From: Auraticoccus cholistanensis
GTDB taxonomy: Bacteria > Actinomycetota > Actinomycetes > Propionibacteriales > Propionibacteriaceae
Direction of reading: 5' to 3'
Length of the DNA: 64,000 nt
NCBI RefSeq assembly: GCF_009742705.1
Contig: NZ_WPCU01000002.1
Location: 33,177 to 97,176 of the forward strand
Part shown: piece after piece, positions 44,867 to 55,238 of the stretch
Layout of the letters: each line of letters starts with the position of its first letter
Numbering within the stretch: position 1 is the first letter of the stretch
Notes under the pieces: generated by a model
The model's input: the letters and a program-made list of their open reading frames with translations, nothing else
Databases searched by the model: none
What the model was told of the DNA's origin: nothing
Position numbers and translations under genes: made by a program

Positions 44867-45892
44867 TCACTCCTGGGGTGGTGGGGCGGTGGACTCGCGG
44901 GTGATGAGCTGGTGGTCCACCCGGCGCCGGCGCGCCTCGCCCGACGGCGGGGTGAGCACCAGCTGCAGCGCCTCCCGGCCCATCTCGGTGAGCGGGAAGC
45001 GGGTGGTGGTGAGGCTGGGTGAGAGCTGGGCGGCCACGGCGACGTCGTCGAAGCCGGCGACCGACACCTGCTCGGGCACCCGCACGCCGCGCCGGCGCAG
45101 CGTGTCGAGCACGCCGATGGCCATGGCGTCGTTGAGGGCGAGCACGGCGGTGGTGCGCGGCCAGCGCTCCACCACCTCGACGGCGGCCGTGGCGGCGCCG
45201 TCGCGGGTGAAGTCGGTCTCCAGCACGTGCAGCTCGACGTCCTCGCGGCCGTCGAGCACGGAGTGGATGCCGGCCAGCCGGTCCTGCACGGTGGTCAGCC
45301 CCGGCGGCCCGCCCAGCACGGCGATGCGCCGGTGGCCCAGCTCGAGCAGGTGGCGGGCGAGGGTGGCGCCGGCGCCGGTGTTGTCGGGCAGCAGGGCGTC
45401 GCTCTCCAGGTGGCGGCGGCCGATGGCGACCACGTGGCCGCCGCGGGCGGTGAAGCCGTCGAGCAGGGCGCGCAGGTCGGCGTCCACCTCGGGGTCGGTG
45501 TGCCCGGAGCCGGCCAGCACGACGGCCCGGACGCGGTGCGCGACCAGCGAGCGCACCTGCTTGAGCTCCCGGCCGGGGTCGCGGCCGGCGTGGCAGACCT
45601 GCACCAGCAGGTCGTTCTGCTCGGCCGCCTCGACCAGCCCGCCGGCGATCTCGGTGAAGTAGGGGTCGCCGATCTCGTGCACGACCAGCCCGATGACGGT
45701 GGTGGTGCCGCCGGCCAGGGTGCGGGCGTGCACGTTGGCGACGTAACCCATCTCGGCGGCCGTCCGGCGCACCCGCTCGGCGACCTCGCTGCTCACCCCC
45801 GCCTTGCCGCTGAGGGCGCGGGAGACCGTCGCGGTGGAGACGCCGAGCGCGCGGGCGACGTCGTCCAGTCGGGTGACGTGGCCGAGCTCCAT
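44867..45892 (-). CDS. LacI-family transcriptional regulator
   Basis: A 341-residue repressor. The HTH is VTRLDDVARALGVSTATVSR followed by the hinge helix region ALSGKAGVSSEVAERVRR. The sugar-binding domain includes TVIGLVVHEIGDPYFTEIAG, GHRRIAVLGG and VSVAGFDDV. ATG 45892 is preceded by AGGAG; the long open frame upstream is the Gfo gene's other strand. It is divergent from the Gfo - DUF993 - isomerase operon with palindrome 45991-46004 between, and probably represses that operon and, by shared operator core, the sugar importer at 9-13 kb. Confidence 0.93.
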   Translation of the reverse strand: MELGHVTRLDDVARALGVSTATVSRALSGKAGVSSEVAERVRRTAAEMGYVANVHARTLAGGTTTVIGLVVHEIGDPYFTEIAGGLVEAAEQNDLLVQVCHAGRDPGRELKQVRSLVAHRVRAVVLAGSGHTDPEVDADLRALLDGFTARGGHVVAIGRRHLESDALLPDNTGAGATLARHLLELGHRRIAVLGGPPGLTTVQDRLAGIHSVLDGREDVELHVLETDFTRDGAATAAVEVVERWPRTTAVLALNDAMAIGVLDTLRRRGVRVPEQVSVAGFDDVAVAAQLSPSLTTTRFPLTEMGREALQLVLTPPSGEARRRRVDHQLITRESTAPPPQE

Positions 45893-45990
45893 GCGGCGCG
45901 CTCCTGTTGGCGGGAAGGGCCGGGCGCGGCACCCGGCGAGGTGGCCGGCACGCCGAGGTTGCCGACCGGAGTGGTCTCTGCCTACCATAA

Positions 45991-46004
45991 CGCAAGCGCT
46001 TACG
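45991..46004. promoter_or_regulatory. LacI-type operator between lacI and the Gfo gene
   Basis: CGCAAGCGCTTACG is a near-perfect palindrome around AAGCGCTT with a central CG. It lies 33-46 nt before the Gfo start and 99-112 nt before the lacI start, so it could control both directions. The core equals that of the importer operator at 12844-12855. Confidence 0.7.
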
Positions 46005-46036
46005 GACAGCGCGCCGAGCAAAGGAGCGACACGACC

Positions 46037-47194
46037 ATGGCCGAGCGGACCATCAGGATCGTCATGAACGGCATCACCGGACGGATGGGGTACCGCCAGC
46101 ACCTGCTGCGCTCCATCCTCGCCATCCGCGACGACGGCGGCGTGGCGCTGCCGAACGGCGACCGCCTGCAGGTGGAGCCCGTGCTGGTGGGCCGCAACGC
46201 CGAGAAGCTGGCCAAGATCGCCAAGGACCACGCGGTCGCGGACTGGACCACCGACCTCTCCGCCGCGCTGGCCGACGACAGCGCCAGCGTCTACTTCGAC
46301 GCCCAGGTGACCTCCGGTCGCAAGGACGCCATCCTGGCCGCGATGGCCCGCGGCAAGCACATCTTCACCGAGAAGCCGATCGCCGAGACCGTCGCCGACG
46401 GCATCGAGCTGGTCGAGGCCGCCGAGGCCGCCGGGGTGACCACCGGCGTGGTGCACGACAAGCTGTACCTGCCCGGGCTGCTCAAGCTGAAGCGGCTCAT
46501 CGACTCCGGCTTCTTCGGCCGCATCCTCTCGGTGCGCGGCGAGTTCGGCTACTGGGTCTTCGAGGGCGACATCATCCCCGCCCAGCGCCCCAGCTGGAAC
46601 TACCGCGCCGAGGACGGCGGCGGCATGGTGCTGGACATGTTCTGCCACTGGAACTACGTGATGGAGAACCTGTTCGGACGGGTGGAGGCGGTCACCGCCA
46701 AGGCCGTCACCCACATCCCCGAGCGCTGGGACGAGCAGGGCAACAAGTACACCGCCACCGCCGACGACGCCGCCTACGGCATCTTCGAGCTCGAGGGCGG
46801 CATCATCGCCCAGATCAACTCCTCCTGGGCCGTCCGCGTCGACCGCGGCGAGCTCGTCGAGTTCCAGGTCGACGGCACCCACGGCTCGGCCGTGGCCGGG
46901 CTGTTCGGCTGCCGCATCCAGCACCGGGTGCGCACCCCGAAGCCGGTGTGGAACCCCGACCTGCCCACCGACCAGGACTTCCGCGCGCAGTGGGAGCAGG
47001 TGCCGGACAACACCGAGTTCACCAACGGCTTCCGCGCCCAGTGGGAGCAGTTCCTGACCGACCTCGACGCGGGCCGTCCGCACCCCTACGACCTGGCCGC
47101 CGGCGTCCGCGGGCTGCAGCTGGTCGACGCCGGGCTGCAGTCCTCGAACGAGGGTCGCCGCGTGGAGATCCAGCAGTTCGGAGGTGCTGCGTGA
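46037..47194 (+). CDS. Gfo/Idh/MocA-family sugar dehydrogenase
   Basis: NAD(P)-dependent oxidoreductase of 385 residues. The Rossmann domain starts IRIVMNGITGRMGYRQHLLR, and the EKP motif is present as KHIFTEKPIAETVADG. The C-terminal substrate domain has GGGMVLDMFCHW, with a candidate catalytic Asp/His pair. AAGGAG stands 10 nt before ATG 46037. Such enzymes oxidise sugar hydroxyls, often at C3 of glucosides or in inositol-like substrates. It is first in a tightly coupled three-gene operon behind a LacI operator. Confidence 0.92.
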   Translation: MAERTIRIVMNGITGRMGYRQHLLRSILAIRDDGGVALPNGDRLQVEPVLVGRNAEKLAKIAKDHAVADWTTDLSAALADDSASVYFDAQVTSGRKDAILAAMARGKHIFTEKPIAETVADGIELVEAAEAAGVTTGVVHDKLYLPGLLKLKRLIDSGFFGRILSVRGEFGYWVFEGDIIPAQRPSWNYRAEDGGGMVLDMFCHWNYVMENLFGRVEAVTAKAVTHIPERWDEQGNKYTATADDAAYGIFELEGGIIAQINSSWAVRVDRGELVEFQVDGTHGSAVAGLFGCRIQHRVRTPKPVWNPDLPTDQDFRAQWEQVPDNTEFTNGFRAQWEQFLTDLDAGRPHPYDLAAGVRGLQLVDAGLQSSNEGRRVEIQQFGGAA

Positions 47195-48396
47195 GCACGG
47201 CCGTGACCAGCCCGGACGCCGTCCCCGGCACCGGCGACAGCATCCGCCTGCCCGACGCCGACGGCGGCTGGCGCACCGTCGAGCTGGCCGTCCCGCGCGA
47301 CTGGCAGCCGCACCCGGTGCCCCACACCAGCCGGATCGCCTTCGCCGCCGCCCACGTCATCGTGGACCCGCGGCTGGAGAACGTCCCCGGCGCGCCGGCC
47401 GGCGTCGACTGGGAGGCCACCCTGGCCTTCCGGCGCCACCTGTTCGCCCACGGGCTCGGGGTCGCCGAGGCGATGGACACCGCCCAGCGCAACATGGGTC
47501 TGGACTGGCCGGCCGCGGCCGAGCTGATCACCCGCAGCGCCGCGCAGGCCCGCGAGCACGGCGCCCGGATCGCCTCCGGCGCCGGCACCGACCACCTCGC
47601 CGCCGGTGCGCAGGTGCCCCTGGAGCAGGTGACCCAGGCCTACCTCGAGCAGGTGGCCCACGTCGAGGGCGCCGGCTCGCAGGTCATCGTGATGGCCTCC
47701 CGGCACCTGGCGGCGGCCGCCACCAGCGCCGAGGACTACCTGGGCGTCTACACCACGATCCTGGAGCAGGTGTCGGAGCCGGTCGTCCTGCACTGGCTGG
47801 GCGAGGCCTTCGACCCGAACCTGGCCGGCTACTGGGGCAGCAGCGACGTCACCGTGGCCACCGAGACCTTCCTCGGGCTGGTGCGCCAGCACGCGGCCAA
47901 GGTCGACGGGGTCAAGGTCTCGCTGCTCTCGGCCGAGCACGAGCGGGGGCTGCGGGCCGCGCTGCCGGAGGGTGTGCGGCTCTACACCGGCGACGACTTC
48001 AACTACCCCGAGCTGATCGAGGGCGACGGCACCCACCACTCCGACGCCCTGCTCGGCGCCTTCGCCGCCATCGCCCCGGCGGCCTCGGCCGCGCTGACGG
48101 CCCTCGAGTCGGGCGACGTGGACACCTACCGCGCGGAGATGGCCCCGACGCTGCCGCTGTCGCGGACGATCTTCGAGGCGCCCACCTTCCACTACAAGAC
48201 CGGGATCGCGTTCGTCTCGTGGCTCTCGGGCCTGCAGGACGGCTTCGCCATGGTCGGCGGGCTGCAGTCGGCGCGCTCGCCGCTGCACCTGGCGCGGGTG
48301 TTCGAGCTGGCCAACGCGGCCCGGCTGCTGCCGGACCCGGACCTGGCCGCCGCCCGGATGCGGCTCGTGCTGGACCTGGCGGGGCTGCGCGCGTGA
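47191..48396 (+). CDS. DUF993 family TIM-barrel protein (DapA-like)
   Basis: A 401-residue protein that I place in DUF993, a family related to dihydrodipicolinate-synthase-type aldolases but without an assigned reaction. Recognisable parts are PHTSRIAFAAAHVIVDPRLE near residue 45, QVIVMASRHLAAAA near 167, LHWLGEAFDPNLAGYWG near 195 and KVSLLSAEHERGLR, where the Lys after KVDGV could be the Schiff-base residue. Start GTG 47191 overlaps the Gfo stop as GTGA. Between a dehydrogenase and an isomerase it probably performs a C-C bond step, which is inference. Confidence 0.82.
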   Translation: MSTAVTSPDAVPGTGDSIRLPDADGGWRTVELAVPRDWQPHPVPHTSRIAFAAAHVIVDPRLENVPGAPAGVDWEATLAFRRHLFAHGLGVAEAMDTAQRNMGLDWPAAAELITRSAAQAREHGARIASGAGTDHLAAGAQVPLEQVTQAYLEQVAHVEGAGSQVIVMASRHLAAAATSAEDYLGVYTTILEQVSEPVVLHWLGEAFDPNLAGYWGSSDVTVATETFLGLVRQHAAKVDGVKVSLLSAEHERGLRAALPEGVRLYTGDDFNYPELIEGDGTHHSDALLGAFAAIAPAASAALTALESGDVDTYRAEMAPTLPLSRTIFEAPTFHYKTGIAFVSWLSGLQDGFAMVGGLQSARSPLHLARVFELANAARLLPDPDLAAARMRLVLDLAGLRA

Positions 48397-49286
48397 GCGC
48401 GGTCGACGTCCCCGGCGGAGCCCCGGCCCGGGTGGAGACGCCCGCGCCGGGGGACCCGCGGCTGGCCCGGCTGTCGCTGAACCAGCGCACCACCGCCTCG
48501 TGGGACCTGCGCTCGGCGATCGACGGCTGCCTGGCCGCCGGGCTGCCCAGCATCGGTCTGTGGCGCGAGCCGGTGGCCGAGGTGGGGCTGGAGACGGCCG
48601 TGCGCTGGGTCCAGGAGTCGGGGCTGCGGGTGTCGTCGCTGTGCCGGGGCGGGTTCTTCACCGTCTCCGAGCCGGACGCCGTCGAGCAGGCGTACGCCGA
48701 GAACGTCCGCGCCCTGGACGAGGCGCAGGCGCTCGGCGCCCGCACCCTGGTGCTGGTGCCCGGTGGCCTGCCCGCCGGTGACCGCGACCTGGTCGCCGCC
48801 CGTGAGCGCGCCGCCGCCGCGGTGGAGCGGCTGGTGCCCGAGGCCGAGCAGCGGGGCGTGGTGCTGGGGATCGAGCCGATGAACCCCATCTACGCCGCCG
48901 ACCGCGGGGTCGTCTCCACGCTGGCCCAGGCCCTCGACATCGCCGAGCGGTTCACCCCCGCCCAGGTGGGCGTGGTCGTCGACACCTTCCACCTGTGGTG
49001 GGAGCCCGGGGTGCGCGAGCAGATCCTGCGGGCCGGGGACCGGATCGTCAGCTACCAGGTCTGCGACTGGATCACCCCGCTGCCGGCCGACACGCTGCTG
49101 GCCCGCGGGATGATGGGCGACGGCCACGTCGACTTCGCCAGCTTCACCCGCTGGGTGGCCGAGGCCGGCTACACCGGCGACGCCGAGGTCGAGATCTTCA
49201 ACGCCGACGTCTGGGCCGCACCCGGCGCCGACACCGTGGCCACGCTGGCCCGCCGCTACGTGGAGCTGGTCCAGCCGCACCTCTGA
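48393..49286 (+). CDS. Sugar phosphate isomerase/epimerase family TIM-barrel protein
   Basis: A 297-residue xylose-isomerase-like (AP_endonuc_2 fold) protein. The family pattern is seen in SLNQRTTASWDLRSAIDGCL, LGIEPMNPIYAADRG with metal-ligand Glu, VVDTFHLWWEPGV with Asp/His, MGDGHVDFASF and AEVEIFN with the last Glu. A full metal site is present. Start GTG 48393 overlaps the DUF993 stop as GTGA. It ends the operon and is followed by a long hairpin. The substrate may be a keto-sugar made by the Gfo enzyme. Confidence 0.87.
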   Translation: MSAVDVPGGAPARVETPAPGDPRLARLSLNQRTTASWDLRSAIDGCLAAGLPSIGLWREPVAEVGLETAVRWVQESGLRVSSLCRGGFFTVSEPDAVEQAYAENVRALDEAQALGARTLVLVPGGLPAGDRDLVAARERAAAAVERLVPEAEQRGVVLGIEPMNPIYAADRGVVSTLAQALDIAERFTPAQVGVVVDTFHLWWEPGVREQILRAGDRIVSYQVCDWITPLPADTLLARGMMGDGHVDFASFTRWVAEAGYTGDAEVEIFNADVWAAPGADTVATLARRYVELVQPHL

Positions 49287-49367: not shown

Positions 49368-49425
49368 TGACCAAAGTTGTCAGAACCATTGCCAATCCAG
49401 CGCACGACTGTGACACTTCCTGTCA
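49368..49425. promoter_or_regulatory. Twin operator dyads for the MurR/RpiR regulator
   Basis: TGAC-N7-GTCA occurs at 49368-49382 and again at 49411-49425, centres 43 bp apart (about four helical turns). The second overlaps the first base of the regulator's start codon. An overlapping TTGTCA-N7-TGCCAA dyad is at 49377-49395. Same half-sites and spacing argue for two dimers of one protein, most simply the RpiR product. Confidence 0.65.
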
Positions 49426-50336
49426 TGTCGTCGACGTCCAGCGCCACCCGACCACCCCTGGTGCTGGCCGAGCTGCGCCGGATCCTGCCGACCCTGCCGG
49501 CCTCGGTGCAGCGCACGGCGGAGACGGTGATCGCCGACCCGGTGGGCAGCGTCTCCGGCACCATCAACGAGCTGGCCGCGGCCAGCGGCACCTCCCCCTC
49601 GGCGGTCTCCCGGCTCTGCCGCCGGCTGGGGGTGGACGGCTACCCGGCGCTGCGGATCGCGGTGCTGGCCGACGCCTCCCGCGGCGAGGCCTCGGCCTGG
49701 GAGCTGGACATCTCCCGCTCCATCAGCGCCGACGACCCGCTGGAGGACGTAGCCGCCATCCTCGGCGCGGCGCAGTCTCGGGCGGTCCACGACACCCTCG
49801 CCGGTCTCGACCTCGACGCCGTCCGCGCCGTCGCCCACCGGGTCGCCGACGCCCGTCGCGTGCACGTCTACGGGGTCAGCGGCAGCGCCATCATGGCGGC
49901 GGAGCTGCAGCTGCGGCTGCAGCGGATCGGGGTGCCGATCTGGGCCTACTCCGACGTCCACGAGGGGCTCACCGCGGCCGCGCTGCTGGGCCCCCGCGAC
50001 GTGGCGGTCGCCATCTCCTGCACCGGCTCCACCGTCGAGACCATCGACATGCTGCGCTGCGCGGCCCAGCACGGCGCGGTCACCGCCGCCATCACCGGGG
50101 CCCGCACCTCCCCGCTCGCCGAGCACGCCCAGCACCTGCTGCTCACCGTCACCGAGGAGACCACCTTCCGCGAGGGGCCGCTGGCCGCCCGGTTCTCCGA
50201 GCTGACCGTGGTCGAGCTGCTCTACCTCGCCGTCGCCCAGCTCAGCGCCGACCACACCGCCGAGCTCCTCACCGCCACCGCCGAGGCCGTCCGCGGCCAC
50301 CACGTGGCTCCCCGCACCCGCACCACCTCCCGCTGA
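49425..50336 (+). CDS. MurR/RpiR-family transcriptional regulator
   Basis: A 303-residue regulator with an N-terminal HTH_6 domain (ASVQRTAETVIADPVGSVSG, then LAAASGTSPSAVSRLCRRLG) and a C-terminal SIS sugar-phosphate sensor domain (VHVYGVSGSAIMAAELQLRL, AISCTGSTVETIDML). ATG 49425 gives the normal N-terminus; an in-frame TTG at 49377 would also be open. No Shine-Dalgarno is seen, so a leaderless message is possible. It leads a set with an exported glycosidase-like protein, a SIS protein and a GlcNAc-kinase-like protein, fitting amino-sugar phosphate sensing. Confidence 0.9.
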   Translation: MSSTSSATRPPLVLAELRRILPTLPASVQRTAETVIADPVGSVSGTINELAAASGTSPSAVSRLCRRLGVDGYPALRIAVLADASRGEASAWELDISRSISADDPLEDVAAILGAAQSRAVHDTLAGLDLDAVRAVAHRVADARRVHVYGVSGSAIMAAELQLRLQRIGVPIWAYSDVHEGLTAAALLGPRDVAVAISCTGSTVETIDMLRCAAQHGAVTAAITGARTSPLAEHAQHLLLTVTEETTFREGPLAARFSELTVVELLYLAVAQLSADHTAELLTATAEAVRGHHVAPRTRTTSR

Positions 50337-50389: not shown

Positions 50390-52267
50390 ATGTCCGACCT
50401 CACGGTGTCCCGGAAGGGATTCCTGGCCCTCGGCAGCGCGATCGGCGGTGTCCTGGCCAGCACCGGCGCGTTCGGCGCCTCGCGCGCCAGCGCACGTCCC
50501 GCACGGAAGGCGGCCGGCGCCGGCACCGGCGGCCCGCTGCTGGACGGCTCCCGCTTCCCGATCGGCGTCTTCTGGCCGCCGCCGCCGCTGGAGAGCACGG
50601 TCGAGCGCTACCAGCAGATGGTGGACGCCGGCTTCACCTACATGCACACCGGCAACTACGGCTGGGCCGACGTGCAGATCGCCACCCACCAGCTGCGCAC
50701 GGCCCAGCAGGTGGGCCTGCAGGTGCTGGTCGACGACCCCGACATCCGGTGGCTGACCCGCAGCGTGTCGATCTCCGACGACGGCGGCGACTTCACCATC
50801 ACCCGCCGCGAGGCCGAGGCCAAGCTGCGCGAGATCATCGCCCGCTACCAGCCGGTGCGGTGGTGGCGGGTCGAGGACGGCCGGCTGCTGATCAGCGGCG
50901 GCACCGGCAACGGCTCCATCGGCTACAGCACCGAGGGCGAGGACTGGACCGACTACACCCTGTCGTTCAGCACCAGCCCGCGCCCCACCGGCGCCGGCGG
51001 CTACGCCCAGTCCGGCTGGGCCTTCCGCGTCCAGGACGAGGGCAACGCCTACGTCTGGCTGCTCAACAACCAGTCCGGTCCCGGCAACCTCACCAAGGCC
51101 GTCTTCGTCAACGGCGCCCCGCGGGTGAGCGTGGTGCCGCTGGGCTTCGACGTGGTGGCGGGTACCACCTACCGGGTGGAGACCCGGCTGGAGGGCGACA
51201 CCATCACCACCTCCGTCAACGGCAAGGTGGTCGACACCACCACCGACGCCACCTTCGCCTCCGGGCCGGTCGGCTTCCGCCAGGCCGGCAACGAGTCGGC
51301 CTACTACGACGACGTCCGGGTGGTCGACGCCAGCGGCCGCGAGCTGCTCAGCGAGGACTTCTCCGGCGGCCTCGACCAGTGGCGCACCCCCGGCGGCGGC
51401 GGCTTCGAGAGCTTCGCCGGCATCCACCTCTACGACGAGCCGACGGTGCCCAAGCTGGCCGACCTCGGCGCCCTGGCCGAGATCATCCGCTCGATCGACC
51501 CCGACGTGCTGCCCTACATCAACCACTTCCCGGGCTTCGACTACGAGGCGGCGATGGAGCAGACCACGCCGGAGCTGCTGTCCTTCGACCGCTACCCGAT
51601 CCTCTCCTCGGGCGAGGACGTCGGCTACTTCGCCAACTGGGCGGCGGTGCGCGAGGCGGCCCTGCCGACCGACACCCCGACCTGGGCGTTCATCCAGTCC
51701 GTCGGCTACGCCAACCACGCCGTCCCCACCAAGGCCGACCTGTACTGGCAGACCAACATCAGCCTCGCCTACGGCTGCAAGGGCATCCAGTACTTCACCT
51801 ACTGGACCCCCGACCCGGCCCGCGGGGAGGGCTTCCACGACGGCATCGTGCTCGTCGACGGCACCCTCACCCCGCTCTACGACGCCACCCGCGAGGTCAA
51901 CACCGAGTGGCTGGCGCCGGTCGGCCTGCAGCTGCTGCCGCTGCGCTCGGAGGCGGTGCAGGCGGCCAACCTGGCCGACGTTCCGGCGGGTCTGGACACC
52001 TTCGAGGCCGACGACGAGATCGCCTCGGTCTCCGGCGACGCGGTCGTCCTCGGCCGCTTCACCGGGCCCGACGAGCACCGCTACGTCCTGCTCGCCAACT
52101 ACTCCCGCCACGAGGCCGCCACGGTCGAGCTGCGGTGGGGGTCGGCGGTGCAGCGGGTGGCCAGCTTCAACCCCGGCAACGAGAGCTACCGCAACCGCGG
52201 CCGCGGCCGGTTCGTGGTCGAGCTGGGCGCCGGCGAGGCCCACCTGGTCCGGGTGGACCCCCGGTGA
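50390..52267 (+). CDS. Exported glycoside-hydrolase-like protein with a nested beta-sandwich domain
   Basis: A 625-residue protein whose exact family I do not recognise. The N-terminus TVSRKGFLALGSAIGG resembles a Tat signal with RK instead of RR. A TIM-barrel-like part (FPIGVFWPPPPLESTVERYQ) runs to about residue 156 (IIARYQP), is interrupted by about 185 residues of a concanavalin-like/3-keto-disaccharide-hydrolase-like sandwich (TYRVETRLEGDTITTSVNGK), and resumes at about 342 with GIHLYDEPTVPKLADLG, whose Glu is a candidate acid, then LLSFDRYPIL. A final beta domain closes it. GGAGGAACC precedes the ATG. Probably releases sugar for the two following genes. Confidence 0.72.
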   Translation: MSDLTVSRKGFLALGSAIGGVLASTGAFGASRASARPARKAAGAGTGGPLLDGSRFPIGVFWPPPPLESTVERYQQMVDAGFTYMHTGNYGWADVQIATHQLRTAQQVGLQVLVDDPDIRWLTRSVSISDDGGDFTITRREAEAKLREIIARYQPVRWWRVEDGRLLISGGTGNGSIGYSTEGEDWTDYTLSFSTSPRPTGAGGYAQSGWAFRVQDEGNAYVWLLNNQSGPGNLTKAVFVNGAPRVSVVPLGFDVVAGTTYRVETRLEGDTITTSVNGKVVDTTTDATFASGPVGFRQAGNESAYYDDVRVVDASGRELLSEDFSGGLDQWRTPGGGGFESFAGIHLYDEPTVPKLADLGALAEIIRSIDPDVLPYINHFPGFDYEAAMEQTTPELLSFDRYPILSSGEDVGYFANWAAVREAALPTDTPTWAFIQSVGYANHAVPTKADLYWQTNISLAYGCKGIQYFTYWTPDPARGEGFHDGIVLVDGTLTPLYDATREVNTEWLAPVGLQLLPLRSEAVQAANLADVPAGLDTFEADDEIASVSGDAVVLGRFTGPDEHRYVLLANYSRHEAATVELRWGSAVQRVASFNPGNESYRNRGRGRFVVELGAGEAHLVRVDPR

Positions 52268-52308: not shown

Positions 52309-53082
52309 GTGACTAGTGTCGCGCCCATGACCGTCGATGCGCCCACGTTCGTCTCCGCCGCCACCGCGACCATGCAGGAGGTGGCCACCACCCAGCTCGA
52401 GGGTGTCCGCGCCGCCGCGGCCCTGCTGCGCCGGTGCCTCGACGCCGACGGGGTGGTGCAGGCCTTCGGGACCGGCCACTCCGAGGCGTTCGCCATGGAG
52501 GTCGCCGGCCGGGCCGGTGGGCTGGTCCCCACCAACCGGCTGACGCTCCGCGACCCGGTCGTGCTGGGGCACTCCCCGGCCGACGTCCTGGGCGACACCC
52601 TGCTGGAGCGCGATCCCGCCACCGCGCACCGCATCTACGAGCTCATCCCGCAGGTGCAGCCGCAGGACGTGTTCGTGATCGCCTCCAACTCCGGCGCCAA
52701 CGGCAGCATCGTCGAGTTCGCCACCCTGGTGAAGGAGAAGGGCCACGACCTGATCGCGGTGACCTCGATGCAGCACACCACCCAGGTGCCGCCGCGTCAC
52801 CCCAGCGGCAAGAAGCTGTACGAGCTGGCCGACGTGGTGCTCGACAACGGGGCGCCGTACGGGGACGCCATCCTGCCGCTGCCCGGCGGCGGGGCGGCCT
52901 GCGGGGTCTCCTCGCTGACCGCGGCGATGCTGGCGCAGATGATGCTGGCCGAGGTGCTGAACGGGATGCTGGCCGACGGGGTCACCCCGCCGGTCTACCT
53001 CTCGGCCAACATCCCCGGCGGCGACGAGCACAACAACGCCCTGGAGGCCCGCTACGCCGGCCGGCTCCGCCGGCTGCCGTGA
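52309..53082 (+). CDS. SIS-domain protein of the UPF0309 type
   Basis: A 257-residue sugar-isomerase-fold protein. The SIS pattern is visible as GVVQAFGTGHSEAFAMEVAG near residue 48 and FVIASNSGANGSIVEFATLV near 125, with AVTSMQHT and a C-terminal HNNALEARYAGRLRRL. Such proteins bind phosphosugars, possibly acting as isomerase, etherase or lyase on GlcNAc/MurNAc phosphates. GTG 52309 has AGGGGG upstream; ATG 52327 is the alternative. It lies 41 nt after the glycosidase-like gene and 7 nt before the kinase. Confidence 0.85.
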   Translation: MTSVAPMTVDAPTFVSAATATMQEVATTQLEGVRAAAALLRRCLDADGVVQAFGTGHSEAFAMEVAGRAGGLVPTNRLTLRDPVVLGHSPADVLGDTLLERDPATAHRIYELIPQVQPQDVFVIASNSGANGSIVEFATLVKEKGHDLIAVTSMQHTTQVPPRHPSGKKLYELADVVLDNGAPYGDAILPLPGGGAACGVSSLTAAMLAQMMLAEVLNGMLADGVTPPVYLSANIPGGDEHNNALEARYAGRLRRLP

Positions 53083-53089
53083 CCCGCAG

Positions 53090-54064
53090 GTGACCTCCTC
53101 CGCCGACCCGACGGCGCTGGTGCTCGGCCTCGACGCCGGCGGCACCAGCACCCGGTGCCTGGTCGTGGACGCCGGCGGTCGCGTCCACGGCCGCGCCCGG
53201 GCCGGCGGTGGCAACCCCATCTCCCGTCCGGTGGCCGAGGCCACCGAGCAGGTCGCGCTCGCCGTCGGCGGGGCGCTCGCCCAGGTGGACGCGGGCCTGG
53301 TGCGCACGGCCGTCCTCGGCGTGGCCGGCTACGGCAACCACCCCGAGACGATCGGGACCCTCTCCGCCGCGCTGGACCGGGCCGGGCTGCGCTGCCCGGT
53401 CCGGGTCTGCGGCGACGCCGAGATCGCCTTCGCCGCCGGCACCCCGGCACGCGAGGGAACGGTGCTGATCGCCGGCACCGGCGCCACCGCCTGCCGGGTG
53501 GTCGACGGCGGCGAGGGACCGACCCACGACGGCTGGGGCTGGCTGCTCGGCGACGAGGGGTCCGGCTTCTGGATCGGCCGCGAGGCGGTCCGGGTGATGC
53601 TGCACGACGCCGAGCGCGGGCTCGCCGGACCGCTGGCCACCGCGGTCTCGCAGGCGGTGGCCGGAGGCTGGGTCAGCGGGCCCGACCTCATCCTCCGGGT
53701 GCACGCGCGTCCGCCGGTGGCGCTGGCCGAGCTGGCTCCGCTGGTGCTGGACGCGGCGGCGGCCGGGGACGTCCAGGCGGGGGAGATCGTGCGGCGGGCG
53801 GTCGAGCTGCTGGTCGCCTCGGTCTCGGAGATCCGCGCACCGGGGGAGCAGACGCCGGTCGTGCTGGCCGGTGGCATCGCCAGCTCGGCCGGGGTGGGCG
53901 GGCCGCTGGCCGCGGCGCTGCACGAGCGCTGGCCCACCGCCTCGCTGCGCACGGTCACCAGCTCCGAGGCGGGGGCGGTGTGGCTGGCGGCGCGCCAGCA
54001 GTGGCCAGGGCTGCCGGAGACCGTCCACGAGCGGCTCTGCCGGCCCCGGCTGCTGGCCGGCTGA
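53090..54064 (+). CDS. N-acetylglucosamine kinase-like protein (BadF/BcrA ATPase family)
   Basis: ASKHA-fold kinase of 324 residues. Phosphate-1 motif VLGLDAGGTSTRCLVVD, phosphate-2 motif LIAGTGATACR, and adenosine motif VVLAGGIASS are all present, as is GWGWLLGDEGSGFWIGREAV, typical of GlcNAc kinases. It should phosphorylate an amino sugar at O-6 or O-1 with ATP. It lies 7 nt after the SIS protein. Together with the RpiR regulator this supports an amino-sugar route, although the exact sugar is not provable. Confidence 0.87.
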   Translation: MTSSADPTALVLGLDAGGTSTRCLVVDAGGRVHGRARAGGGNPISRPVAEATEQVALAVGGALAQVDAGLVRTAVLGVAGYGNHPETIGTLSAALDRAGLRCPVRVCGDAEIAFAAGTPAREGTVLIAGTGATACRVVDGGEGPTHDGWGWLLGDEGSGFWIGREAVRVMLHDAERGLAGPLATAVSQAVAGGWVSGPDLILRVHARPPVALAELAPLVLDAAAAGDVQAGEIVRRAVELLVASVSEIRAPGEQTPVVLAGGIASSAGVGGPLAAALHERWPTASLRTVTSSEAGAVWLAARQQWPGLPETVHERLCRPRLLAG

Positions 54065-54113
54065 ACCGGCTCCGCGCCGGTCGGGGACTTCCCGGCGGGC
54101 CGCCGGCGTTGCG

Positions 54114-55238
54114 GTGTGCGTGGGAGCGGATGCGCAGCAGACCGACGTGGTGGTGATCGGCGCCGGCCAGGCGGGGCTCTCGACCGCCTGGGCGCTGAGC
54201 CGCAGCGACCTCGGCTTCGTGGTGCTGGACCAGAACCCGGCCCCGGGAGGGGCGTGGCAGCACCGCTGGCCCAGCCTGCGGATGGCCACCGTGCACGGCA
54301 TCTTCGGTCTGCCCGGCATGCGGTTCACGCTGCCGTCCCCGCAGCGGCAGGCCCGCGAGGCGGTGCCGGCCTACTTCGCCCGCTACGAGACCGAGATGGG
54401 TCTGCGCGTGCAGCGGCCCGTCACCGTGCGGGCGGTCAGCCGGGCCGGGGACCGGCTGCTGGTGGAGTCCGACCGGGGCAGCTGGGCCGCGCGGGCGGTG
54501 GTCAACGCCACCGGCACGTGGACCCGTCCGTTCTGGCCCCACTACCCCGGTCAGCAGTCCTTCGCCGGTGAGCAGCTGCACGCCGCGGACTACCCCGGAC
54601 CGGAGCGGCTCGCCGGCCGCCGCGTCGTGGTGGTGGGCGGCGGCAGCACGGCGGTGCAGCTGCTGATGGAGCTGGCTGAGGTGGCCGAGACGACCTGGGT
54701 GACCCGACGCCCGCCGGTGTTCCGCGACGCCCCCTTCACCTCCGACTACGGCCGCGAGGTGGTGGCCCGGGTGGACGAACGGGTCCGCGCCGGCCGGCCG
54801 CCGGAGTCGGTGGTCACCGCGACCGCGCTGGTCCGCACCCCCGAGGTGCGCGCGGCCCAGGCCAGCGGGGTGCTGCGCCGGCACCCGGTGTTCGACCGCG
54901 TCGTCCCCGACGGGGTGGTGTGGGACGGACCGCCGGAGGGCCCGCGGCACCTGCCGGCCGACGTCATCCTGTGGTGCACCGGCTGGCGGGCCGCCCTGGA
55001 CCACCTCGCGCCGCTGCGGCTGCGCGGGCCCGGTGGCGGCATCACCATGGACGGCACCAGGGTGGTCGCCGAGCCGCGGCTGCACCTGGTGGGGTACGGA
55101 CCCTCGGCCAGCACCGTCGGGGCGAACCGGGCCGGACGGGCGGCCGTCCGCGAGATCCGCCAGCTGCTCGGCCGGCCGTCCGACGCCGAGCCCTCCCCGG
55201 GCCACGCCGGCGCGGTCGCCGGAGCCCGGGGAGGCTGA
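54114..55238 (+). CDS. FAD-dependent NAD(P)-binding oxidoreductase (flavin monooxygenase-like)
   Basis: A 374-residue two-dinucleotide-binding flavoprotein. The FAD loop is VVVIGAGQAGLSTAWAL near residue 14, and the NAD(P) loop is VVVVGGGSTAVQLLMEL near 173. Between them is FAGEQLHAADY, matching the FxGxxxHxxxY motif of class B monooxygenases. ILWCTGWR is the usual late motif. GTG 54114 or 54120 starts it; there is no clear Shine-Dalgarno. Could oxidise an aldehyde, amine or sulfur compound; substrate unknown. Confidence 0.87.
   Translation: MCVGADAQQTDVVVIGAGQAGLSTAWALSRSDLGFVVLDQNPAPGGAWQHRWPSLRMATVHGIFGLPGMRFTLPSPQRQAREAVPAYFARYETEMGLRVQRPVTVRAVSRAGDRLLVESDRGSWAARAVVNATGTWTRPFWPHYPGQQSFAGEQLHAADYPGPERLAGRRVVVVGGGSTAVQLLMELAEVAETTWVTRRPPVFRDAPFTSDYGREVVARVDERVRAGRPPESVVTATALVRTPEVRAAQASGVLRRHPVFDRVVPDGVVWDGPPEGPRHLPADVILWCTGWRAALDHLAPLRLRGPGGGITMDGTRVVAEPRLHLVGYGPSASTVGANRAGRAAVREIRQLLGRPSDAEPSPGHAGAVAGARGG

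Follow-up and report, generated by a model that had tools for sequence, protein, structure and literature searches.

A CBM66-like module nested in a predicted GH42-like barrel of Auraticoccus cholistanensis

A gene of Auraticoccus cholistanensis, found once in its 3.8-Mb genome, encodes a protein in which a CBM66-like, lectin-type module is inserted between α3 and β4 of a TIM barrel, at a site where insert-free relatives carry about two residues. The gene lies in a stretch of 64,000 nucleotides (G+C 74.6%), referred to here as the window (Table 1). With moderate confidence, we read the product as a GH42-like barrel with a nested, permuted CBM66-like module; the protein would be exported by the Tat pathway and would release an amino sugar by substrate-assisted catalysis. 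A literature search, mainly of titles and abstract openings and with thin coverage of subscription journals, found no paper that describes the barrel family or the nesting of a permuted CBM66-type module within a barrel.

Table 1. Coordinates of the interrupted-barrel gene, its parts, its neighbours and the two-insert relatives (positions in the window unless a locus is named)
Feature	Position	Strand	Basis
MurR/RpiR-type regulator (helix-turn-helix and SIS), directly upstream	49377..50336	+	Pfam; NCBIfam below equivalog cut-offs
Gene of the 625-residue interrupted-barrel protein (P0001)	50390..52267	+	Translation, homologues, one place in own genome
Tat-like signal (SRKGFL) and leader with low model confidence, residues 1-48	50390..50533	+	Sequence; model
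Barrel, first part, residues 49-153 (β1 to α3)	50534..50848	+	Model; alignment to insert-free relatives
Nested CBM66-like β-sandwich, residues 154-338, probably circularly permuted	50849..51403	+	Foldseek, profile match, rotation tests
Barrel, second part, residues 339-515 (β4 to α8)	51404..51934	+	Model; invariant residues
C-terminal β-sandwich, residues 516-625	51935..52264	+	Model; inside GH42 structure-alignment range
SIS-domain phosphosugar protein (PRK02947 subfamily), downstream	52309..53082	+	Pfam SIS_2, 128 bits; NF002805, 283 bits (cut-off 135)
BadF/BadG-family kinase, distantly NagK-like	53090..54064	+	Pfam PF01869, 90 bits
Two-insert proteins, barrel with modules in the β3-α3 and β5-α5 loops	L063:10684-12795 (704 aa); L065:10881-13016; L071:7204-9963; L187		

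A barrel interrupted between α3 and β4

An earlier note on this DNA had taken the protein for one TIM barrel interrupted by a β-sandwich, and both the comparison with relatives and structure prediction bear this out. Relatives were collected as 79 loci from a scan of genome contigs, covering the best 80 of 185 confirmed stretches. By blastp, nine of these 79 loci (L001-L008 and L016; best 80 of 185 stretches) match across the middle domain; at the remaining loci, the match either breaks off ahead of the insert or where it begins and picks up again where it ends or close by, or else is only partial. In L011, the clearest insert-free case, query residues 4-153 align with subject residues 21-170 and query residues 338-622 with 171-461, so that the two segments are contiguous and query residues 153 and 338 become neighbours. 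Pairwise global alignments were uninformative, as the long gap was broken up and scattered, and a multiple alignment of 62 rows (A1; 12 with the insert and 50 without) was therefore used. The interruption is real and the insertion clean: in place of the 185 residues, the insert-free rows carry two (47 of 50), one (1), three (1) or eight (1). That all homologues carry the middle domain as a consecutive domain fails, since these 50 rows are insert-free. The insert size of about 185 residues in the earlier note holds, and its borders of 156-342 shift to about 154-338, between α3, which ends at Y153, and β4.

An AlphaFold model built from A1 (mean pLDDT 89.2, pTM 0.80; pLDDT <50 for residues 1-45) has the eight barrel strands in order and the sandwich between α3 and β4. 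In the model, β1 spans residues 58-62, β2 84-86, β3 111-114, α3 139-153, β4 342-349, β5 374-379, β6 397-399, β7 431-435 and β8 465-470, with the insert sandwich at about 159-332 and the C-terminal sandwich at 519-624. In VIA-align comparisons of the model, GH42 β-galactosidases were on top (5e9a, Z 28.9, 3.4 Å, 348 residues), with further matches to 4uoz (27.5), 3tts (25.8) and GH164 (24.8). The GH42 β-galactosidases, among them 5e9a, 4uoz and 3tts, share both the TIM barrel and the C-terminal sandwich over 321-352 aligned residues (Z 22.6-28.9), and the architecture predicted for the window protein is a GH42-type (β/α)8 barrel plus C-terminal sandwich. An hhalign comparison of the window family with 13 GH42 proteins, out of 17 GH42 matches in related genomes, gave a probability of 97.2 and an E value of 3.1e-11. 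A phmmer search of the whole protein against the PDB was weak (best E 1.4), as was a search with the profile of A1 (best E 0.14). On the whole protein, Pfam GH42 (PF02449) scores 14.5 bits at residues 362-505 and, once the insert is removed, 15.8 bits, still below the cut-off of 21; PF06439 scores 25.2 bits at 157-311, below its cut-off of 26.8. Pfam and NCBIfam scans of family members gave no name of its own to the barrel family; some relatives pass the GH42 cut-off (L063:6001-7158, 45.6; L063:10684-12795, 29.1; L066, 35.9), and the match is absent in L011, L009 and L072. Unlike GH42 enzymes, the window protein has no Pfam match to the GH42 middle domain and carries the nested module in the α3-β4 loop.

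In a TIM barrel, the α-β loops form the N-terminal, non-catalytic face. Because the insert hangs from the α3-β4 loop, at the N-terminal end of the barrel, it is predicted to lie on the face opposite the active site. E350 stands at the C-terminal end of β4, about eight strand residues from the insert, roughly 25 Å as estimated by standard strand geometry, and on the model the DEP acid is near the insert in sequence only. The earlier suggestion that a sandwich next to this acid could shape substrate access finds no support, as the model places the insert in the α3-β4 loop; given this α-β loop position, a shaping of the active site through closeness to DEP was rejected.

On a barrel tree computed without the insert columns, presence of the insert requires two changes, compared with an average of 11.1 in shuffles, and a tree holding the 12 insert-bearing rows as one clade is not rejected (p-AU 0.106). 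Since a single clade is not rejected, one gain of the insert, with perhaps one loss in L011, is possible; a single capture of the module, in one actinobacterial lineage, is the probable course. The module tree itself is poorly resolved, with 2 of 18 inner branches starred, and is compatible with one donor or with several. In 11 relatives, the insert is 51-73% identical to the window copy, the two barrel parts are 48-87% and 51-88% identical, and the C-terminal sandwich is 35-59% identical, less than the insert in all 11. Being about as conserved as the barrel parts and more so than the C-terminal sandwich, the insert is maintained.

The N terminus carries the Tat-like signal with RK in place of RR that the earlier note had described. 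RK is also found in L081, L001, L008 and L016, and RQ in L002; RR is the rule in most of the other listed relatives with a signal, among them two insert-bearing Mumia proteins. Judged from these N termini, RK in the Tat signal is not peculiar to the window gene. Barrel copies in Nonomuraea (L069, L072, L073, L074 and L076) start close to a SIS gene and have no leader in the open reading frame as listed, which suggests that they may be cytoplasmic versions.

The nested module and its other hosts

Foldseek with the insert returned the CBM66 of levanase (4azz, 4b1l and 4b1m; TMt 0.73-0.77, best 4b1m at 0.77), and a profile of the 12 inserts matched levanase CBM66 with an E value of 8.7e-6 over 131 positions. 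Of the earlier description of the insert as 3-keto-disaccharide-hydrolase/lectin-like, the lectin part is upheld by both comparisons, CBM66 being the nearest solved fold, and the hydrolase name is a Pfam label only. The insert resembles the CBM66 of Bacillus subtilis levanase SacC in its sandwich fold and profile match, and differs from it in sitting within a barrel loop instead of being appended and in a strand order that is probably circularly permuted. Glycosidases usually carry their lectin modules at the ends of the chain. As for ligands of such modules, excerpts of one report describe a Cohnella CBM66 that binds xanthan-lyase-treated xanthan rather than fructan ends (PMC11002231).

Scored on the insert alone, PF06439 (DUF1080) reaches 28.6 bits, with the match beginning at profile position 25. 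When residues 312-340 are moved to the front of the insert, the score rises to 35.0 bits and the match begins at position 11; unlike in PF06439 domains, the opening part of the profile corresponds to the C-terminal end of the insert, and the canonical first strand is placed at residues about 312-338. A control rotation at residue 230 also scores high (34.2 bits, in two stretches), since the same ends are rejoined. Rotation of the related module of L096 raised the PF06439 score from 26.0 to 30.9 bits, and that of L097 brought no gain (40.7 to 39.0 bits). Against CBM66 chains, the rotated profile did not extend into the N-terminal part (best 27.4 versus 28.9 bits).

The profile of the 12 inserts was also applied to 32 loci in both native and rotated form; many of these loci lack a tail match, and there the module order is not readable. 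The window's order, taken as a single match reaching position 180 or beyond, is found in L096, L097, L119, L120, L121, L123, L124 and L130, and likewise in L117, which is the window itself, and L118, which belongs to the family. L139, L141 and L142 differ, the rotated profile being ahead by 6-11 bits; in these GH51-type proteins, typed by Pfam on L139, the CBM66-like module interrupts the C-terminal domain and follows a different circular order again. L137 and L145, both linked to pectate lyase, display the canonical tail-first order in alignments, with the strand ending F..W first, and score about equally with the native and rotated profiles; in L144, the rotated profile scored lower. On the pattern of these matches, the insert is probably a PF06439/CBM66 domain in circularly permuted form. 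In such a permuted module, the two ends would meet, so that it can be spliced into a loop.

The same module recurs in other enzymes, and the insert profile is matched in at least 43 of 246 genomes of the window's class. By Pfam, its hosts include GH78 (L097, L119, L120, L122 and L124), GH95 (L123), GH106 (L130), pectate lyase (L137 and L145), GH51-type (L139) and GH43 (L096) proteins. Those of GH78 (L097, L119, L120 and L124), GH95, GH106 and GH43 have it in the window's head-to-tail order, and the L096 module is 46% identical to the window insert. Unlike in the window protein, the module of the GH78 proteins separates the Ig-like domain from the rhamnosidase N-terminal domain, outside any barrel, and that of the GH51-type protein L139 is differently cut and sits inside a C-terminal domain whose match is interrupted, with 152 profile positions spread over 349 residues. 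Nesting within the GH43 propeller of L096 was considered and is not supported: the GH43 match is neither longer nor higher after module removal (81.9 versus 83.1 bits), and GH43 relatives in 79 genomes match only up to L096 residue 290.

Catalytic-face residues, gene neighbours and candidate chemistry

The second barrel part holds the DEP motif (349-351) on β4, N378 on β5, D400 and Y402 on β6 and Q436 on β7, before β8 and α8. D349, E350, N378, D400, Y402, R421 and the segment I466-W472 are invariant in all 62 A1 rows, in line with the putative acid that the earlier note had seen in DEP. Four positions are acidic throughout A1, namely 116 (60 Asp, 2 Glu), 349, 350 and 400, and in the model they sit at the C-terminal ends of β3 (116), β4 (349 and 350) and β6 (400). 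By contrast with GH42, no A1 row has an acidic residue at 431-438, where Q436 is found in 59 of the 62. The hhalign comparison sets Asp-Glu 349-350 opposite the Asn-Glu at the end of GH42 β4, the Glu being kept and the Asn replaced by Asp in every A1 row, and sets the GH42 β7 nucleophile Glu opposite I435, next to Q436. The family thus shares with the GH42 β-galactosidases of clan GH-A the β4 acid/base Glu and the β6 Asp-x-Tyr-Pro, and differs from them in having Asp-Glu for Asn-Glu and no β7 nucleophile Glu. The same features hold in a second alignment (A6; 28 rows, including 11 two-insert proteins and sharing 17 rows with A1), with Asp-Glu in 28 of 28 rows and Gln at the 436 position in 27.

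The flanking genes encode the regulator, SIS protein and kinase of Table 1; on the kinase, NF046058 (NagK) scores 83 bits, below its cut-off of 370. Within the fetched flanks of the 79 loci (best 80 of 185 stretches; some contigs short), an RpiR homologue is present at 37, a SIS homologue at 12 and SIS together with kinase at 11. The linkage recurs in distant lineages such as Nonomuraea, and at L052 the order is regulator, barrel, SIS, barrel and kinase, with two barrel-family copies flanking the SIS gene. Several points count against an amino-sugar reading of this neighbourhood. Within the same flanks (best 80 of 185 stretches), no RpiR homologue was found at 42 of 79 loci and no SIS homologue at 67. 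The SIS protein is related to NagS/SCO4393 (9eol; E 6.2e-26) but is nearer to 3cvj; in excerpts of PMC12680351, SCO4393 orthologues share 58.7% identity or more, and NagS homologues at 26-36% identity are inactive or nearly so on GlcNAc-6P. This failure of distant NagS homologues, the proximity to 3cvj and the sub-threshold NagK match all weigh on that side. Further upstream, frames 45227-49286 encode Gfo/Idh/MocA, DUF993 and xylose-isomerase-like proteins, another sugar-catabolic set, and an ArsO-like flavin monooxygenase (53871-55238; 323 bits, below the cut-off of 425) is encoded just downstream of the kinase. Among the relatives, L098 (G015, a genome of the window's family) has the first 62 residues, 60% identical, in a short open frame, with an RpiR neighbour 84% identical, and L049, L079 and L087 are family members split over two reading frames by frameshift or sequencing error.

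As the β7 nucleophile position is never acidic in A1, the usual retaining GH-A mechanism is unlikely. Substrate-assisted N-acetylhexosaminidases such as GH20 and GH123 carry an Asp-Glu pair on β4 and use no enzymic nucleophile, and the window family resembles them in its D349-E350 pair (62/62) and the missing β7 acid. Given the absent nucleophile, the invariant β4 Asp-Glu and β6 Asp/Tyr and the RpiR/SIS/NagK-like neighbours, substrate-assisted release of an amino sugar appears to be the likeliest chemistry. To our knowledge, no activity or ligand has been assigned to any barrel-family member; we infer substrate-assisted catalysis from the residue pattern and gene neighbours and put it forward as a testable proposal. 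The protein would be exported by Tat, and the module on the back face would dock on a polysaccharide or glycan and leave catalysis to the open C-terminal face of the barrel. There, a 2-acetamido (amino) sugar would be released; E350 would serve as acid/base, and D349 would orient the acetamido group. After uptake, the kinase would phosphorylate the freed sugar and the SIS protein would process it.

The same architecture might instead serve an ordinary or inverting glycosidase acting on neutral sugars, with E350 as acid, D116 or D400 as base and the amino-sugar neighbours incidental. The acidic residues at 116 and 400 in all 62 rows, at the C-terminal ends of β3 and β6, would suit this chemistry, as would the β-galactosidases and GH164 β-mannosidase that are the closest folds and the β6 Asp and Tyr also present in the aligned GH42 row; however, the retaining GH42 nucleophile is missing in 62/62 rows, and the recurrence of the RpiR/SIS/kinase linkage as far away as Nonomuraea speaks against incidental neighbours, and we hold this alternative possible but doubtful. 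Rather unlikely, in our judgement, is a non-catalytic sugar-binding barrel, or pseudo-glycosidase, with the nested module as a second binding surface. Such a protein would account for a GH42 nucleophile position that is never acidic and for the Nonomuraea relatives that adjoin sugar-phosphate genes and lack a leader in the listed frame, yet binding alone hardly accounts for the invariance of D349, E350, N378, D400 and Y402 at the catalytic face. We consider it improbable that the insert is an enzyme domain (a 3-keto-glycoside hydrolase, PF06439) of a bifunctional protein working with the Gfo/Idh/MocA oxidoreductase encoded upstream (frame 45227-47194): PF06439 does exceed its cut-off on the insert alone (28.6 against 26.8 bits), and single-domain DUF1080 proteins are linked to 3-keto-disaccharide hydrolysis in excerpts of PMC9007349, but the nearest solved structure is the lectin CBM66, and the oxidoreductase linkage is not conserved within the fetched flanks, with a weak match (25%) at one of 79 loci (L077; best 80 of 185 stretches).

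Insertions elsewhere in the barrel family

Other relatives carry a different module in other loops. L063, L065 and L071 encode barrel-family proteins that keep the DEP and Gln features and hold two copies of another module, one between β3 and α3 and one after β5. These Paenibacillaceae proteins differ from the window protein in the type of module and in the two catalytic-face loops that receive it. The module measures about 130 residues; in L063, its two copies are 47% identical, and Pfam found no match for it. An AlphaFold model of the L063 protein (pLDDT 88.5) has a GH42-like barrel (Z 28.1) with the inserts in β-α loops, that is, on the catalytic face; Foldseek with this model gave no clear identity for the inserts, and the list of structure matches was filled by the barrel. 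The genomes of L063, L065, L071, L066 and L077 hold 7 to 35 match pieces each, counted as pieces and not as proteins. In two frames of one genome (G294, C1:5492917-5495625 and C1:6727493-6730243), query residues about 320-450, which comprise the β5-site module, repeat in a row within one open frame, suggesting tandem modules within the barrel. Both inserts are also present in L187, which comes from a genome of the window's class and shares 43% identity with the L063 protein. Insertions seem to have entered this barrel repeatedly.

Combining these observations with the amino-sugar reading preferred above, we tentatively propose a wider scheme, which we consider possible rather than probable. 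A GH42-derived family would have lost its nucleophile, switched to substrate-assisted amino-sugar chemistry and become a serial host of nested lectin modules. A permuted CBM66-type cassette whose ends adjoin, shared with GH78, GH95, GH106 and GH43 proteins, would have entered the back face in actinobacteria. Another module would have gone into two front loops, in Paenibacillaceae and in one actinobacterial relative, and would have multiplied there in tandem. With insert-free and insert-bearing relatives and a defined empty site at hand, domain insertion into an enzyme barrel can be traced stepwise. Adjoining ends in a circularly permuted module would account for the folding of such insertions, and with this residue pattern, a switch of catalytic mechanism inside the GH42 fold would be open to direct testing.
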